Below, piece by piece: positions 27,897 through 34,236 of a stretch of DNA of 34,236 nucleotides. A program made the translations under genes and the position numbers. The notes under the pieces were generated by a model. The model was given only the letters and a program-made list of their open reading frames with translations. It ran no database searches and was not told the DNA's origin. The stretch comes from a virus: positions 1 through 34,236 of the IMG/VR virus record IMGVR_UViG_3300017688_000001. The stretch is one strand, 5' to 3'. Every line of letters starts with the position of its first letter. Position 1 is the first letter of the stretch.

Positions 27897-30806
27897 TTAA
27901 TCTTTTTTATAAAAACTGCATTCATAACCCTCGGCATGAAGCAGCAGTCCCTTAGCCCAGAACGGTGTTTTTGCCATTTGCTTACAGATGGCTAAAAGAG
28001 ACATACGCATATCCGCCTCAATAATAATTTCATCATGGACATGGGCCACAATAAAACAATATCGGAGTCTTGTCATCGCTTCGGCCAAAATATCCCGGCT
28101 GATTGCCTGGACGATATTCTCAACAAACTTTGGCCCATAACTCTCAATCCGCTCCCATTTCTTTGTGCCACCCACCCCTTCATAGGTCACCGACTCACCG
28201 CCAAAGCGATTCTCACCGATACGGGGTTTTACATATGCCAGTTTTCTGCCGGAAGGAAGGGTGATAAATAAAAACCCACTCTGATAAGAAAAGTAAATAC
28301 CATGGGTCTCGGTTGGGATTTTTTGTTTGATGCATATTTTTACCGCACGATCCACCGCCCACCAGAAACGGACGATGTTGGGATTGGCCTGACGCCAGGC
28401 ATCAACCAGCGGCTTTAATTCTTCCTCTTTCATACCGAGCTCAAGAGCACCCATTGCTTTTAGTGCGCCGACTGATCCGCCATACCCGCAGTTGTGGACG
28501 AGTTTTCCCGATACGGTAAAACGGTGATGTGATCCGGCATTTCGTATGTCATAAAGTCGAGCCTTGCGCTGATCAATTTCCAATTTTTTCTTTTTTCGAA
28601 TACTGCTGTTTCGGCTCCCTGGATTATTTCGTCCCTGCTTAATCCGACCGATAATTTGCGAACGACCACATTTCTTACATAAGGCCAATATTCCTGAGAA
28701 AAATGGCTGAGCACCGTACACCTTTTGTTTTGGTTGTTTTCCAAATGTGTCACAAAACGAAGATTGCCTGGTGCATAATCCAGATCGTTGTTGATCCGGT
28801 CGATTTCTAGCTCTTTTGGTGGCAAGCCAAATGTTTTTATTAAATAAAGACCGGCTTCGGTAACACTTGTAAAAGCGAATTTTATTCCTCTCGCACCGTA
28901 ATTGTGATAACCTCCATCGTTTGGATTTTCGCATCGTTGTTTTGCTGCCGCAAGTCTTCGATCCAACCAGAACGGAATCTGCCTTGGCTGAGAACAACTT
29001 TGACATCCTTTCGATTTCCCGCTTTTTAAATTGCAATACAACTGCCACTGAATGCTTCCGCAGCCGGTACACTGGGTCAGCACATAACAATGATTCATTT
29101 TTTTGTTCCATCGTTTCTCGGATGAAATAATCTTCACCCAACCGAATTGCTGTCCCACAATCTCCGGTTTGTATGAGATGTGCGCCGCTGGCGGCGGCGA
29201 TTCCAAATTGTATCGGCTGCGATTGCCCCTCAACCCACACAAGGTGGTCTGCGGTTGCTGTAAGACCGTCATAGGTTATGACCTCTCTTTCTCCTTTGAA
29301 AACTACTCCTTCATGACTCACCCATTTTTCACCATCCCAAAGTTTATGATCGATTAAAATCTTTTCGATCGGCACCAGACCATCATTCGTTAAGACAAGT
29401 TGCCCTTCTGCAATACAGGCTAACTCGGCTTGCTTCCCTTTCTGACGGAGTTCACTATTTTCGCCATGTTTGACCACGTTGCAGTGAAACATCTTTGATG
29501 CGGTCGCACAATAGATGTCCCCGTTATCTGCAAAAACATCCATCCGCCAACTTTCACCCGCCAGCCAGGATAGAACTCTTGCTTCAATCGCTGAGAAATC
29601 GGCAACAATAAACTTCATGCCATCTCGTGGAATAAAGGCCGTCCGAATCAGTTCTGATAGTACTTCCGGCACTGAATGATAAAGCATTGAAAGTGCATCC
29701 TCATTTCCGCTTCGAACCAGGGCGCGCGCCTGTTCCAGGTCTGGGATGTGGTTCTGGGGAAGGTTTTGCAGCTGGATCAGGCGACCCGCCCATCGTCCCG
29801 TCCGGTTAGCGCCGCAGAATTGAAAAGTTCCCCGGACCCGGCTATCCTCGCAAACCGCATGGTGCATGGCCTGGTATTTTTTCACCGAGGATTTAGCCAG
29901 TTGCTGACGCAGCGAAAGCACTTCTGCCAACTGATCCGGAGCCGTTTTTAGCATCTCAGTGACCGCTTTTTTCCCAAGTGTATCGGTTTCCAGCCCCTTA
30001 TCCGCCAGCCAACTTTTCATCTGCTGGACTGAATTGGGGTTATCCAGATTGGTGAGTGCCTGCATCTGTATTGTCAGCTTTTCTCGAGATAGCTGATCAA
30101 TCGCAATCGCCTGTTTGACAAAGGTCATATCAAGGGCAATACCCCGGTCATTGATTTCCTGATCAAGATGATACTCATCCCAGACAAAATCAGGCACAGG
30201 GGTCTTAGTCAGTTTTTTCTGAATGGCTATCTCTACCTCAACGTCACGCCGATTATAGTTCGAAAATCGTTTCCATTTTTCTTGATCATGTTCCGGTAAA
30301 TTGCGAGTACGACCGCTATTTGCTTTGGTACTTTTACATGGCATACAGAAATACCGGATCAGATCTTTTCCTTCCTTCAGCTTCTGATCTTCCAGACCCA
30401 GCACTGCACCAACCCTTTCCAGCGACAGTGGCAACCCCATGTAGGCAGACCAGACCATCGTACATCGCCATGCCGACGGATCCAGATAACCCCTGACTGT
30501 ATCGGCTGCAATACTGTAGCTGCAAAAATCCTGGGGATAATTCCGTCTCAGCCATACCGACAGGCAGACCCGCTCAAACTGACTATTGAAGGCCCATTTA
30601 ATCACGGTATCATCCACCAGTGCGGCAATCACTTCTGGGGGTATTTCTTCACCACTGGCCAGATCAACCACCTGGACCTCGCCGCCATCCATCGCATATC
30701 CGAAAAGCAGAATGTCAAAATTTGGTGACTCTGAATATTTGTATACACCACCTTTTGACAAGTCCACATCAGAGAACGACTCAATATCAATTGATAAATT
30801 TTTCAT
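27897..30806 (-). CDS. polA: DNA polymerase I-type (family A) replicative polymerase, interrupted by an intein
   Basis: The precursor has 969 residues from the ATG at 30806 (GGAG eight bases upstream; a TTG at 30812 is in frame). A DEDD-type exonuclease comes first (SIDIES, D7/E9; NYNRRDVEVEI as the Yx3D motif). The polymerase domain has motif A VADFSAIEARV (D403), the motif B region KGKQAELA...CGYGGSVGALKAMG and motif C HVHDE (about residues 923-926). The intein, from Cys464 to Asn772, interrupts motif B between LA and CGYG. After splicing, the polymerase would be 660 residues, the normal size for this phage family. A terminator lies on each side, so the gene is a distinct unit in the early operon. 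Active polymerase requires splicing, since motif B forms the nucleotide-binding helix. Confidence 0.93.
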   Translation of the reverse strand: MKNLSIDIESFSDVDLSKGGVYKYSESPNFDILLFGYAMDGGEVQVVDLASGEEIPPEVIAALVDDTVIKWAFNSQFERVCLSVWLRRNYPQDFCSYSIAADTVRGYLDPSAWRCTMVWSAYMGLPLSLERVGAVLGLEDQKLKEGKDLIRYFCMPCKSTKANSGRTRNLPEHDQEKWKRFSNYNRRDVEVEIAIQKKLTKTPVPDFVWDEYHLDQEINDRGIALDMTFVKQAIAIDQLSREKLTIQMQALTNLDNPNSVQQMKSWLADKGLETDTLGKKAVTEMLKTAPDQLAEVLSLRQQLAKSSVKKYQAMHHAVCEDSRVRGTFQFCGANRTGRWAGRLIQLQNLPQNHIPDLEQARALVRSGNEDALSMLYHSVPEVLSELIRTAFIPRDGMKFIVADFSAIEARVLSWLAGESWRMDVFADNGDIYCATASKMFHCNVVKHGENSELRQKGKQAELACIAEGQLVLTNDGLVPIEKILIDHKLWDGEKWVSHEGVVFKGEREVITYDGLTATADHLVWVEGQSQPIQFGIAAASGAHLIQTGDCGTAIRLGEDYFIRETMEQKNESLLCADPVYRLRKHSVAVVLQFKKREIERMSKLFSAKADSVLVGSKTCGSKTTMRKSKRWRLSQLRCERNKIRFYKCYRSRSLFNKNIWLATKRARNRPDQQRSGLCTRQSSFCDTFGKQPKQKVYGAQPFFSGILALCKKCGRSQIIGRIKQGRNNPGSRNSSIRKKKKLEIDQRKARLYDIRNAGSHHRFTVSGKLVHNCGYGGSVGALKAMGALELGMKEEELKPLVDAWRQANPNIVRFWWAVDRAVKICIKQKIPTETHGIYFSYQSGFLFITLPSGRKLAYVKPRIGENRFGGESVTYEGVGGTKKWERIESYGPKFVENIVQAISRDILAEAMTRLRYCFIVAHVHDEIIIEADMRMSLLAICKQMAKTPFWAKGLLLHAEGYECSFYKKD
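28460..29272 (-). CDS. HNH homing-endonuclease-like gene nested in the intein, +1 frame
   Basis: This frame is offset +1 from the polymerase and is open for 270 codons from an ATG at 29272. The recognisable protein starts at about codon 39 (GTG at 29158): VGQQFGWVKIISSE, the usual N-terminus of phage HNH proteins ('IGQRFGRL'). Then come a zinc ribbon (CTGC at 68-71, CQSC at 90-93), 'WLDRRLAAAKQRCENPND', NYGARGI (124-130) and the HNH core 'EIDRINNDLDYAPGNLRFVTHLENN' (156-180). Codons 186-238 look like a normal C-terminal domain. The frame stops at 28460, 31 bases past the intein end, inside polymerase coding DNA. GAGAGG lies nine bases before ATG 29272, and a GGAG three bases before the GTG; the true start is uncertain. 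The enzyme probably cuts intein-free polymerase genes to spread the intein. Confidence 0.8.
   Translation of the reverse strand: MTVLQQPQTTLCGLRGNRSRYNLESPPPAAHISYKPEIVGQQFGWVKIISSEKRWNKKMNHCYVLTQCTGCGSIQWQLYCNLKSGKSKGCQSCSQPRQIPFWLDRRLAAAKQRCENPNDGGYHNYGARGIKFAFTSVTEAGLYLIKTFGLPPKELEIDRINNDLDYAPGNLRFVTHLENNQNKRCTVLSHFSQEYWPYVRNVVVRKLSVGLSRDEIIQGAETAVFEKRKNWKLISARLDFMTYEMPDHITVLPYRENSSTTAGMADQSAH
28491..29417 (-). other. Intein (309 residues) in polymerase motif B
   Basis: Block A begins at Cys464 (29417-29415): CIAEGQLVLTNDGLVPIEKI. Block B has VITYDGLTATADHLVW, with the T-x-x-H motif at T518/H521. Blocks F and G are ARLYDIRNAG, HHRFTVSGKLVHN (H771, N772), followed by Cys773 as the +1 residue. 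All catalytic residues for splicing are present. There is no LAGLIDADG domain. Between residues about 563 and 743 the polymerase frame gives a Lys/Arg/Ser/Cys-rich sequence with no domain look, exactly opposite the +1 HNH frame. Confidence 0.9.
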
Positions 30807-30827
30807 TTCCAAATCTCCGTCCTTTTA

Positions 30828-31085: not shown

Positions 31086-31655
31086 TTAAGCCAGGAAGTC
31101 ATCATCGTCTTGGGTTGCGAAATCGTCCTCAGCTCGTGATTTCCCGCCAAGATTTTCCCCATCTTTAATCTTCTGCAGATTATTCAAGTTACAGGCAATG
31201 CCTTTATTACCGTTGGTATTGAATGCATAAAAGTTTATACTCGCCCGACCATAAACGCCACTATAGACTTCAGAACGGTCGATGATTTCCTGGCGATCAG
31301 CATCCACGATGCCGGGAGCAGTGGTACTGTTAGCATTCAGGAAATAGCAGTTTTCATAGGCGGGATCATCGGGTCTTTCAGTATCGCCGTCTCTAAGTGG
31401 TGTCTTTAGAACTGATAACGCCGGAACGCTTCTCCCCGTTCCCTTCAGTTTAGATTCACCTTCCTTGTAAGCTGCTTCAATCGCGACTTTAATTTTTGTC
31501 ACGGTTTTTGTGTCTGACTTCGGAATAATGACGCTGACACTGTACTTCGGTGTGCCGCCATTAATGCTCTTTGGCTCCCAGACGTTCGCATAACTCCAAC
31601 GGGTGTCGGGTCCGGTAATTACTTTCATGGGATTTACATTTTTTACATTTGACAT
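31086..31655 (-). CDS. DUF2815 family protein, single-stranded DNA-binding-like
   Basis: A 189-residue protein with the DUF2815 pattern: 'VITGPDTRWSYANVWEPKSINGGTPKYSVSVIIPKSD' at residues 12-48, 'YFLNANSTTAPGIVD' near 104 and 'SGVYGRASINFYAFNTNGNKGIACNLNNLQKI' near 132. An OB-like beta core is followed by an acidic tail ending DDDDFLA, as in SSB proteins that recruit partners through their tail. AGGAG precedes the ATG. It lies between the DUF2800 nuclease and the polymerase, the standard order in this replication module. Confidence 0.88.
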   Translation of the reverse strand: MSNVKNVNPMKVITGPDTRWSYANVWEPKSINGGTPKYSVSVIIPKSDTKTVTKIKVAIEAAYKEGESKLKGTGRSVPALSVLKTPLRDGDTERPDDPAYENCYFLNANSTTAPGIVDADRQEIIDRSEVYSGVYGRASINFYAFNTNGNKGIACNLNNLQKIKDGENLGGKSRAEDDFATQDDDDFLA

Positions 31656-31667
31656 AATATTTTTCTC

Positions 31668-32834
31668 CTATTCTTCTATAAAATCATTTTTGGCTGTATT
31701 CATTGCCGGTCGCTTGTCACTCTCCGGCGCGAGTGTTGGTTTACCCTGGGGCCGGCAGACGAGCTGACCGAGGACTTCTTCAAATTGCTTCTTACCAAGT
31801 GCAGATGTCATGGCGGTTATACCAAGTAGTTTCTGTTCATAGGGGTTAACCCCAGCTGCAACAACCGCATCCGCAACTACCGTTTCATCGATATATTTGC
31901 GGTTGGCTCGGCCTTCGACCAGTTTCCAGCCTGCCCATTCTTTACCAGAAATTGCAGCTTGTAGTGCAAATGCCTTGATGTCCGATGCCCAGGACACCAG
32001 ATCATCCACTTTGAGAAGAATGGCTTCAATTTCTTCATCTTCCAGGGTGGCAGGCTTCTCAAAATCATAACGGGCCAGTTCCATATTGTTTTCGGCACGT
32101 TTTCTGCAGGTCGCTTTTGCCTTACAGAAATAGCAGTGTTCTCCAGATTCAAATTCACCGTCGCCTTTATTGGCCAGTCGGGCGGCTGGAGCAAGAACAT
32201 CGTCGGCCCACTGTAGCAGTTCAGCTTTCGACAACGTATCGATGCTGATGTTTTCCCGTCTCGGCTGGTAAATTATAGTGTTGATGGTGTCAAAATCAAA
32301 AATACCATCAAATAACTCGACTGCCCCAAGTGAATAACAGAGCATTTGTGGGTTGTTCTCGGCTTCCACTAGGATTCCTTTTCCGTGCTTATAGTCAATT
32401 ACGGATAATGTACCGTCTGCGATAATGACACAGTCGCCAGTGCCGAAGCCTGACTCGACCCACCTGCTAAAATCCAGTCGATGTTCAATTAATACCACCG
32501 GATCGGAGCAGGTTTCTTTGGCTTTGGCCACCTGTTCCATCACATAGAGGGCATAATTTTCGGCACAGTTTTCCATTTCCTCATCGTAAAAAGAAAGATC
32601 TGCCGTTGGATCTGTTGTTTTCATGCCAAGCATCGACTCCAGTTTAAACTGGCAAAGGCTGTGGGCTTCACTTCCCTGTTTTGCGTAGTCACTGCCCTTA
32701 TCTTCGAAATTTTCACAGAGTCTGGCCGATGGCGGACATCGGATCCATCGATGGCTTGATGATGCCGATAATAAGGCATGACCTGGCTCTGCAGGCTGTG
32801 TGCTTCTGTCATTGATTACTTTTTGCTTTTTCAT
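31668..32834 (-). CDS. DUF2800 family PD-(D/E)XK-like nuclease
   Basis: A 388-residue protein with 'HALLSASSSHRWIRCPPSARLCE' at residues 19-41. The nuclease core is 'GTGDCVIIADGTLSVIDYKHGKG' (about 135-157; the D and D-x-K residues are visible), followed by a conserved Gln region (NNPQMLCYS). A Cys cluster, CYFCKAKATC with an earlier Cys in the region, resembles the iron-sulfur site of Cas4/AddB-type nucleases. It is common in Bacillota phages and likely processes DNA ends in recombination-dependent replication. The start overlaps the previous stop (TAATG). Confidence 0.88.
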   Translation of the reverse strand: MKKQKVINDRSTQPAEPGHALLSASSSHRWIRCPPSARLCENFEDKGSDYAKQGSEAHSLCQFKLESMLGMKTTDPTADLSFYDEEMENCAENYALYVMEQVAKAKETCSDPVVLIEHRLDFSRWVESGFGTGDCVIIADGTLSVIDYKHGKGILVEAENNPQMLCYSLGAVELFDGIFDFDTINTIIYQPRRENISIDTLSKAELLQWADDVLAPAARLANKGDGEFESGEHCYFCKAKATCRKRAENNMELARYDFEKPATLEDEEIEAILLKVDDLVSWASDIKAFALQAAISGKEWAGWKLVEGRANRKYIDETVVADAVVAAGVNPYEQKLLGITAMTSALGKKQFEEVLGQLVCRPQGKPTLAPESDKRPAMNTAKNDFIEE

Positions 32835-33160
32835 TAGAGCAACTCCGCATCTTTTAGCAGCGCCGGATATTTTTCTGGATCGATCTCCGACAGCTTGGAT
32901 GCCCCGTACTTCGTCAGTAGTTCTCTTACGGATGCAGTATGGCCCATGCGGGATTTGTCAGCGAGCACCGCTCTCACATCTTCCATTTTGATTTCTGCCG
33001 GTTCTTCGAAATTCTCAACGATCGGTTCTTCCGCAGGAACAGCTTGACTTGCCACTTCAACTGGCTCATTTTCCAGCATCGCATCAACAACCGCCTGTAA
33101 GCTGTCTGCTAGGGATCGGACATCGGAAATAACGTCAAGCAGTAGTCTTGTTCGACTCAT
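32834..33160 (-). CDS. Hypothetical phage protein with conserved C-terminal helical motif
   Basis: A 108-residue acidic protein. The N-terminal helix (residues 1-30) is followed by a Glu/Pro/Val-rich linker. The C-terminal 'MEDVRAVLADKSRMGHTASVRELLTKYGASKLSEIDPEKYPALLKDAELL' (about 59-108) is a SAP-like helical segment that I recall as common in Bacillota phages, sometimes mislabelled 'rRNA biogenesis protein'. AGGAGG lies eight bases before the ATG. It may bind DNA or a replication partner. Confidence 0.7.
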   Translation of the reverse strand: MSRTRLLLDVISDVRSLADSLQAVVDAMLENEPVEVASQAVPAEEPIVENFEEPAEIKMEDVRAVLADKSRMGHTASVRELLTKYGASKLSEIDPEKYPALLKDAELL

Positions 33161-33359
33161 GGCCTTTACCTCCTCCTATCTGATGGATTTCCACCGTTTC
33201 AACCGAATCTCCGGGCGTGAGTACCAGCACGTTTACTTTTTCGCCAAACAAAAATTTTAACAATTTGTTGCGAATCTGCATTGACCCACTTTTAATAACG
33301 GAAGATGTTCTACCGTCAGGTTGTGCAATACTAATTGACACCTTATGTTTCAGACTCAT
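33135..33359 (-). CDS. Small hypothetical protein
   Basis: A 74-residue protein from the ATG at 33359, which has AAAGGAG nine bases upstream; the open frame extends to 33404 but without a ribosome site. 'KHKVSISIAQPDGRTSSVIKSG' and 'EKVNVLVLTPGDSVETVEIHQIG' are beta strands around a basic helix (RNKLLKFLFG). No family recognised. It overlaps the next gene by 26 bases and is first in the replication string after the sigma-like gene. Confidence 0.65.
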   Translation of the reverse strand: MSLKHKVSISIAQPDGRTSSVIKSGSMQIRNKLLKFLFGEKVNVLVLTPGDSVETVEIHQIGGGKGHESNKTTA

Positions 33360-33409
33360 TTTTTGTCGCTCCTTTCCGGGAATGTTAATCATTCCTCTGT
33401 CCATATGCG

Positions 33410-33448
33410 AAAATCTGGGGGGATTCGAACCCCCCTTTTTCAGATTTT
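33410..33448 (-). terminator. Two-part hairpin with tRNA T-arm-like inner stem
   Basis: On the minus strand an eight-pair outer stem (AAAATCTG/CAGATTTT) and a five-pair G/C inner stem enclose a GTTCGAAT loop, with a five-A bulge on one side. It overlaps the stop codon of the sigma-like gene. It can act as a terminator after that gene, but the T-tract is short, and the inner part looks like a tRNA T-arm. Confidence 0.45.
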
Positions 33449-33922
33449 TTTGCGTAGATTGTTAAATATCTTTTTCAGTCTATTTCTTATTGCTGCTTCA
33501 GTGACACCTTCCTCGGCTGCAATATCCACGTAGGTGCGTCCTTCATAAAACACTTTTTGAATTAAAGCCTTTTGCTGTGGCTGCAGGGTTTCAATCGCTG
33601 ATCTTAATTTTGCCAACCGTTCTTCGTGCTCATTTGCGTCAATTGACTGAATGAGACTCTCCATCGGGTTGGGTTCTGGGTCAATTAGATAGGGATTTCG
33701 GTCGGCGGTGTCTTCATCACTCGCATCTTGGTAAGATTCGAGATGCACCGGAGCATGGTAATCTTCTCTGCGACTAGCATCAACGGCTCTATCATCTTCG
33801 CCATGCAAAATTGCAATCCAGGTGCTGTCCACATCGTCCGGTGAAAGAACATACTTTTTGTTCTCTGCAGTGTAATAAACATAGTTAGTCCGATTCTTTT
33901 CTGGGGTTTTAAACTTTCTCAT
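33440..33922 (-). CDS. Sigma-70 region 4-like regulator
   Basis: A 160-residue protein from the ATG at 33922 (AAGGA upstream); the longer frame to 33994 enters the leader hairpin region. The N-terminal 90 residues are polar and unlike sigma region 2 (with 'NYVYYTAENKKYVLSPDDV'). The C-terminal 60 residues, 'LRSAIETLQPQQKALIQKVFYEGRTYVDIAAEEGVTEAAIRNRLKKIFNNLRKKI', are a clear sigma-70 region 4 helix-turn-helix. Proteins of this kind are frequent at the start of such phage replication modules. Without region 2 it is more likely a transcription activator or sigma-appropriating factor than a full sigma factor. Confidence 0.82.
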   Translation of the reverse strand: MRKFKTPEKNRTNYVYYTAENKKYVLSPDDVDSTWIAILHGEDDRAVDASRREDYHAPVHLESYQDASDEDTADRNPYLIDPEPNPMESLIQSIDANEHEERLAKLRSAIETLQPQQKALIQKVFYEGRTYVDIAAEEGVTEAAIRNRLKKIFNNLRKKI

Positions 33923-33967
33923 AAAGTTCCTTGCCTTTCCCCTGGATGGTTTGGGCAGCAAGGATAC

Positions 33968-34000
33968 AAAAAGAGCCGATGCACTGGTACGCACCGACTC
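33968..34000 (-). terminator. Terminator-like hairpin in the leader of the sigma-like gene
   Basis: On the minus strand GAGTCGGTGC pairs with GCATCGGCTC (ten pairs, two G-U) around an eight-base loop, followed by five T. It stands about 50 bases before the ATG at 33922 and follows the long hairpin at 34030-34092. Confidence 0.65.
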
Positions 34001-34027
34001 CGATACCTAAAAATGGCATAGTAAAGC

Positions 34028-34096
34028 ACGGTGGGTACATCAGTAGCTTGTCCACAGCTAAGCTGTGTTCAAGACTCTTGATGTATCCCGCCGCCC
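34028..34096 (-). ncRNA. Structured leader RNA candidate
   Basis: On the minus strand the segment from 34092 to 34030 folds into one long imperfect hairpin: an outer stem (GGCGGG-A-TACATCA with TGATGTA-CCCACC; one mismatch, one bulge), a middle CTTG/CAAG and AGT/ACT part with purine-rich internal loops, and a six-pair CACAGC/GCTGTG tip. The terminator at 33968-34000 follows at once. Leader plus terminator before a regulator gene suggests an attenuator or stand-alone RNA. No clear promoter is seen in 34097-34236 (a TTGACA near 34185 lacks a matching -10), and no gene is visible there. Confidence 0.5.
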
Positions 34097-34236
34097 TAAT
34101 GCGCATCTCAGGCTTTGAGATAATTTTTTATGAGAAGATTCAACCTCCGGATTTTTTCGTTCAAGACAAAAATTAACATGTCAAAACGCTGATTAGATTA
34201 TCGCGTGTAAATTTTTGATGTTTCGTATGTTTTCAC

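Follow-up and report, generated by a model that had tools for sequence, protein, structure and literature searches.

We consider it quite likely that the minus strand of the window, the whole 34,236-nt stretch of viral DNA that was analysed (IMG/VR record IMGVR_UViG_3300017688_000001), carries a cis-acting, bistable phage leader that acts on the early (replication) operon as a coupled attenuator. The sequence-only reading of this DNA had proposed an attenuator, a riboswitch-like leader or a small RNA at this place; our analysis supports that proposal and favours its attenuator version, because the competing partners are conserved, strand A' for the 5' arm of the terminator and strand A for strand B. 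By its sequence features, the leader appears to be a new RNA family of the terminator/anti-terminator leader kind, with an unusual double gate. The parts of the leader and the genes that follow it are, in window coordinates:

33915..34123, minus strand: whole two-state leader, 209 nt (fold z -7.10, 0 of 200 shuffles; covariance-model match; homologues)
34093..34113, minus strand: 5' dyad S0, in which GCC...GGGC arms flank the palindrome ATGCGCAT (34099-34106)
34080..34096, minus strand: strand A, pairing with A' (OFF) or B (ON) (own-versus-swapped test)
34042..34079, minus strand: apical region of the main hairpin, variable (folds; length and sequence differ among homologues)
34026..34041, minus strand: strand A', pairing with A (OFF) or T (ON, anti-terminator) (swap test, compensatory changes)
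34099-34113 (5' arm) and 34005..34019 (3' arm), minus strand: outer stem P1 (folds; weak covariation, z -2.3)
33968..34001, minus strand: intrinsic terminator T:T' with U-tract (fold, scan, swap test)
33983..34000, minus strand: strand T, terminator 5' arm and loop, complementary to A'
33953..33967, minus strand: strand B, pairing with B' (OFF, ribosome site buried) or A (ON)
33928..33942, minus strand: strand B', including the Shine-Dalgarno site (sequence; B:B' swap test)
33909..34106, minus strand: 65-codon frame, not conserved as a gene
33440..33922, minus strand: sigma-70 region-4-like regulator, 160 aa (Pfam Sigma70_r4, E 1.8e-10; phrog_11138, E 4.8e-15)
31086..33404, minus strand: next early-operon genes, phrog_7234, phrog_408, phrog_69 exonuclease and phrog_112 ssDNA-annealing protein

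The window is the terminal part of a prophage contig, with the leader and the early genes on the minus strand. The leader runs up to the start codon of the sigma-like gene (ATG at 33922), and a DNA polymerase A gene follows phrog_112 at 30812 (minus strand). Upstream of the leader lies an open frame of opposite direction (2-715 of L001, which is the same DNA as the window), and since this frame points the other way, the leader probably stands near the 5' start of the early operon in the window. It heads early genes there, a position at which it could gate the decision of the prophage to replicate. Phage NatCom_991 has genes of the same strand upstream of the leader as well.

The hairpin of more than 60 bases that had been described from the letters is real and lies on the minus strand at 34097-34025, with the claimed terminator directly 3' of it (a 12-bp hairpin and a U-tract, 34001-33968, minus), and the order of hairpin, terminator and ribosome site of the sigma-like gene is borne out on that strand. 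Positions 33960-34110 of the minus strand fold at -66.0 kcal/mol (z -5.97, 0 of 200 shuffles equally stable), and the plus strand was rejected as the RNA strand, its fold being weaker (z -3.98). A consensus scan of L001 recovered the terminator at 1110-1139. The leader exceeds the extent first given to it, taking in a further hairpin, in which the Shine-Dalgarno site is buried and which reaches the start codon, about 17 nt more upstream with the 5' dyad (to 34113), and a second fold. Across the homologous loci, a script located a terminator hairpin with U-tract in 125, taking a wrong hairpin in L014 and L199, and found none in five, namely L177 and L185, which end too early, and L184, L155 and L187. 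The terminator of L152 is weak (-4.6 kcal/mol).

The strands of the leader can be arranged in two mutually exclusive folds. The OFF fold consists of A:A', T:T' and B:B', with the Shine-Dalgarno site buried, while the ON fold consists of A':T nested inside A:B, an enclosing geometry that involves no pseudoknot. In the commonest type, strand A GGCGGCGGGATACAT is complementary to A' ATGTACCCACCG and even better to B, which lies just 3' of the terminator U-tract and is also complementary to the Shine-Dalgarno strand B'; A' is in turn complementary to the 5' arm and loop of the terminator CGGTGTACATC.

To quantify these pairings, we set the duplex energy between strands of one and the same leader against the energy obtained when strands were exchanged between clusters, in 5000 permutations. 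The leaders of 119 loci formed 19 clusters below 80% identity (7 of them single sequences); these clusters are related, and the permutations leave that kinship in place. Own strands, counted as better when they surpassed the median swap, prevailed for A:A' (z -6.0, 0/5000, 18/19 clusters), A':T (z -6.0, 0/5000, 19/19), T:T' (z -6.6, 0/5000, 18/19), A:B (z -5.6, 0/5000, 16/19) and B:B' (z -6.9, 0/5000, 17/19). As controls, ten other pairings of these segments gave z values from -1.9 to +1.7, the lowest being A':T' (136/5000). Stem P1 reached z -2.3 (61/5000), level with the unproposed pairs S0a:A (z -2.3) and S0b:B (z -2.0), and a further stem at the 5' end, UCUC:GAGA (z -2.9, 14/5000, own better in 11/19), is absent in several types and was dropped. 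Because unproposed pairs of the 5' part score about like the proposed ones, neither P1 nor UCUC:GAGA is counted as support, and P1 is a possible part of the structure.

Changes on both sides of a helix were found at 9 of 20 positions in A:B, 10 of 22 in A':T, 6 of 18 in A:A' and 19 of 20 in B:B'; these positions were taken from optimal duplexes and are hence biased towards pairing, with the swap test as the control. For example, L223 has A GGACGATGGGATGCA with B TGCGTTCCATCGTTC, and L192 has A GGGCAAAGGATAC with B GTATCCTTTGCC, as well as A' AGAAGTAC with T GTACTTC, versus GATGTA with TACATC in the main type. The sequence-only reading had suggested examining homologues for covariation, with stems broken without compensation as the outcome that would speak against it; in the homologues the stems are kept by compensatory changes, and such uncompensated breakage did not occur.

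Comparison with shuffled strands points the same way for the two ON helices. A:B has at least 11 bp in all 94 distinct leaders (median -24.3 kcal/mol versus a shuffled mean of -12.3), and reaches -20 kcal/mol or lower in 97% of them versus 1.8% with B shuffled. A':T has at least 10 bp in 93 of the 94 (median -15.8 kcal/mol versus -8.4 shuffled), and reaches -12 kcal/mol or lower in 98% versus 15% with T shuffled. Within the window, A:B comprises 14 bp at -26.0 kcal/mol, which none of 5000 shuffles equalled, and A':T taken alone is unremarkable (-15.1 kcal/mol, 315 of 5000 shuffles as good).

The tested loci were chosen with a profile that stops short of the terminator, so that T, B and B' had no influence on their selection. 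Most of these loci came from searches with A/A' patterns or with models of that same portion. T and B were covered by the DNA queries that brought in L001-L005 and by the profile that sorted the early pattern matches, and the loci of L003-L005 were also recovered by an A/A' pattern (L167, L172, L153). The swap test left out L177, L185, L184, L155, L187, L250 and L256, where the script did not find a segment, L014 and L199 with their wrong hairpins, and L166, L188, L189 and L231, where the ribosome-site motif was not found; in L188 and L189 no such motif was recognised after the terminator, and hence no B or B'. L094, L098 and L107 were dropped as weak.

Computed energy favours the OFF fold in 16 of 19 clusters, with a median difference of 5.1 kcal/mol over all 19, and in the window it gives -85.5 kcal/mol for OFF versus -81.4 kcal/mol for ON. 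The constrained energy favours ON in three clusters (L152, L011 and L062), although the pair probabilities of L062 still favour OFF. In a transcript that ends at the terminator, before B, forcing A':T costs a median of 17.6 kcal/mol. Since OFF is favoured and A':T is costly before B exists, a helper or trigger that keeps A from A' would be required, and the energy models suggest OFF as the default state.

We can postulate how such a leader might work. By default, A:A' would form first on the emerging RNA, leaving T:T' to terminate transcription, and in any transcripts that escaped, the Shine-Dalgarno site would be buried in B:B'. If A:A' were opened, A' could take the 5' arm of the terminator and RNA polymerase would read on, while the freed A would pair with B, releasing B' and allowing ribosomes to start, such that a single event would open the transcription and translation gates together. 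We infer that the leader regulates both termination and translation in the cell, and that a trigger acts on its 5' part, the S0 dyad and stem P1. A leader of this kind would give Clostridia prophages an RNA control point.

The 5' site itself offers a concrete hypothesis for the trigger, being self-complementary. A palindrome of at least 6 nt is found at S0 in 41 of 41 distinct S0 stretches (from 119 loci), in five sequences (TGCGCA, TTGCAA, GTCGAC, TGGCCA and AGCGCT), and among shuffled stretches, on average 9.3 of 41 contain a palindrome at any position. TGCGCA is mostly shared by descent, so the independent changes are few (at least four). In homologues, the arms GCC...GGC and GTCC...GGAC flank the palindrome, 5' of A; the flanking helix gave z -3.45 (0/5000), but own strands were better in 8 of 19 clusters only, which leaves it weakly supported. 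Because a self-complementary loop is needless for a plain hairpin, and is needed for RNA dimerisation or a dimeric protein, S0 may be the sensor through one or the other. A more specific version, in which the leader would be a copy-number sensor whose S0 loops kiss between nascent and terminated RNAs and so open or lock A:A', is speculative and in our judgement quite doubtful. If true, the early operon would switch cooperatively with its own transcript level, and the leader would be an RNA-only switch, working by RNA homodimerisation and controlling transcription and translation at once. The retroviral DIS is a kissing-loop dimerisation hairpin. S0 resembles kissing-loop hairpins (PMC7357161, PMC5874298) in that it varies yet stays palindromic, and is unlike them in that its dimerisation is hypothetical and its flanking stem short and weakly supported.

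The same switch could conceivably be set by a small molecule bound in a pocket of S0 and P1, which would make the leader a riboswitch proper. Conservation of the sequence of S0 and of the linker between A' and T fits that explanation, as does the terminator/anti-terminator platform, but the downstream genes are mostly phage regulators (sigma-like, and one Rha) and not metabolic genes. Moreover, Rfam families (T-box, 6S RNA and others) gave no match in the whole window at gathering score, and none to the leader at E<=10 in window 33300-34236 and nine homologous loci or at E<=1 in eight more loci, and we regard a riboswitch proper as unlikely. Alternatively, S0 could act at the DNA level as the operator of a dimeric phage or host protein, with the RNA fold secondary, as the palindrome in every distinct S0 would allow. 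An operator would cover S0 only, however, and not the five RNA helices; S0 is present once in the window; and the U-tract after T' and the Shine-Dalgarno site within B' point to RNA, so that this explanation, too, strikes us as unlikely. It is quite improbable that the terminated leader, which measures no less than about 146 nt between S0 and the U-tract, is a trans-acting small RNA directed at other RNAs, since, although it has its own terminator directly 3' of the structured part, this would leave unexplained both the competing helices A':T and A:B and the kept position directly before the start codon.

That a small protein gene overlaps the region can be dismissed as extremely improbable: the 65-codon frame noticed earlier (34106-33909) exists, is open in the window and crosses the leader, but no ribosome site was seen before it, and although S0 holds a start codon in 92 of 94 distinct leaders, the frames vary in length between 2 and 130 codons and use three registers relative to A. 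The protein-like conservation of this frame that the sequence-only reading had named as counter-evidence to an RNA did not appear, and we rejected the leader as protein-coding, the frame from S0 being conserved neither in length nor in register. No conserved leader peptide was found in the frame starting from S0 (94 distinct leaders). Small hypothetical genes have been annotated over the leader in phage records (L007 43262-43469, L261 4085-4210 and L262 4040-4201), and these are probably not genes.

Homologues of the leader occur in prophages of many Clostridia, in one Erysipelothrix phage and in one Streptococcus phage. The first blastn match, to phage NatCom_991 (73% over 165 bases), covered the RNA rather than the sigma-like gene, and 3 of 40 genomes of the same family carry the leader, the window's own counted. 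The A/A' patterns yielded 18 viral contigs (17 real) and 31 genome contigs (27 real), and patterns for two diverged types added 41 and 16 viral contigs; the covariance model matches each of these 57 at E<=1.8e-9. Searching with a covariance model built from homologues, as had been recommended for this locus, recovered the leader without patterns in 13 of 391 genomes of the class and, with a second model version, in 10 of 398 genomes of the phylum, the window's own counted each time and G199 appearing in both searches. The window matches the model with 122 bits over 34124-34003, its own sequence being in the model's seed. Named phages confirmed by the model are NatCom_991, NatCom_38182, NatCom_21982, NatCom_43819, Erysipelothrix phi1605 and Streptococcus Javan630, the weakest being NatCom_21982 (E 1.4e-4) and NatCom_43819 (E 1.2e-5); NatCom_11393 has the leader by blastn only. 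Plasmids gave no match for the one leader type sought there. We dropped L025, L160, L164, L169 and L174 as chance pattern matches, and likewise most of at least 120 pattern stretches as well as L140, L142-L147 and L149; L258 (E 0.0038) escaped the profile and was left aside.

Downstream of the leader we found 96 frames, of which 95 were analysed, L165 being omitted; no downstream frame was recovered after L188 and L189, and the loci L173 and L214 ended. Among the 95 proteins, 86 match phrog_11138, 82 a phage sigma-factor family and 73 Pfam Sigma70_r4_2. A given leader does not go with a given protein: among 652 pairs of leaders at least 80% alike, 189 precede proteins less than 35% alike, in counts that related pairs enter many times. 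Without three doubtful proteins, those of L032 (unlikely frame), L020 (methyltransferase hybrid) and L202 (truncated), the figure is 157 of 613 pairs, from 70 loci. The leaders of L190 and L247, for example, are 98% identical and their proteins 25% identical, and the leader of L184 precedes a Rha regulator gene. That near-identical leaders precede very different proteins indicates, at the level of sequence comparison, that the leader is a portable cis cassette not tied to a protein, and common to phages with very different downstream proteins. For the same reason, and given the Rha gene after L184, autoregulation by the cognate sigma-like protein is not favoured, though it could conceivably work through a domain that the downstream proteins share. 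The sigma-like family greatly outnumbers the leader: 84 of 148 genomes of the class have phrog_11138, and 6 of the 30 phrog_11138 loci kept carry the leader, the window's own counted. When viral contigs were scanned with the sigma-like protein, a single relative came up, L006, and it lacks the leader.

L202, considered as a leader before an unrelated gene, was rejected, its protein being cut off by the end of the locus. At about 6480-6530 of L165 there is a ribosome site without a start codon at the usual distance, and this locus is perhaps a decayed prophage. In L020 (5913-6464) a sigma-like frame runs into apparent DNA-methyltransferase sequence, and one downstream protein matches methyltransferase families; L020 is perhaps a recombinant or a chimeric contig.

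Attenuators and riboswitch platforms use competing hairpins to choose between an intrinsic terminator and read-through, and some also control the ribosome site. The leader shares with transcription attenuators an intrinsic terminator before the gene and a conserved competing strand, A', for that terminator, and by its sequence it would resemble terminator/anti-terminator attenuators in having competing hairpins at an intrinsic terminator. It is unlike them in that one hairpin links the anti-terminator (A' to T) and the anti-sequestor (A to B), and in having neither a conserved leader peptide nor a known aptamer. The put RNA of phage HK022 acts on RNA polymerase at distant terminators. Going by description, the leader is like put in being a structured phage RNA that heads early genes and affects termination, and is set apart from it, also by description, by a local terminator with its own competing strand.

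The nearest Rfam family by place is DUF2800 RNA (RF02960, Cis-reg), likewise a cis-regulatory RNA, which is located near phage exonuclease/replication genes. The phrog_69 exonuclease gene, which we take to be DUF2800, lies downstream of the leader. The leaders themselves are not matched by RF02960 (cut-off 60.2 bits) in window 33300-34236 and nine homologous loci at E<=10 or in eight more loci at E<=1. A search for RF02960 in 99 genomes carries no weight, since it gave no match even in the 14 controls. A weak DUF2800 RNA match (31.5 bits) does occur in L188 at 1676-1801, on a separate stretch behind the leader and before the sigma-like frame, so that the two stand side by side there, perhaps as two different leader RNAs in tandem. 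The sigma-like frame of L188 lies further on, beyond the leader, and L189 has nearly the same letters as L188 at the DUF2800 RNA-like stretch.

A 2017 paper reportedly comprises 224 motifs. No description of the leader was found in the literature searched, which included no preprints and few subscription papers, nor in passages of PMC2864571 and PMC11109978. As far as that search goes, the leader is an undescribed, widespread phage RNA family.

Some minor features adjoin the leader and its operon. In homologues, the stretch about 45 nt upstream of S0 folds at -4 kcal/mol or lower in 80 of 94 distinct leaders (mean z -1.8); several have hairpins with GAAA loops there, and no such hairpin is obvious in the window. 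The DNA polymerase A frame (27897-30812, minus) seemingly contains a long insertion, presumably intein-like judging by its end motifs, and nested in it in another register is a 270-aa frame (28460-29272, minus) that has no Pfam match at E<=0.01. A second hairpin, GGGGGGUUCGAAUCCCCCC (-17.3 kcal/mol, z -2.2), is found at window 33395-33450 (minus), in the gap that separates the sigma-like gene from its downstream neighbour. It is tRNA T-arm-like and followed by AGAUUUU, ARAGORN finds no tRNA there, and it is possibly a second terminator within the operon.
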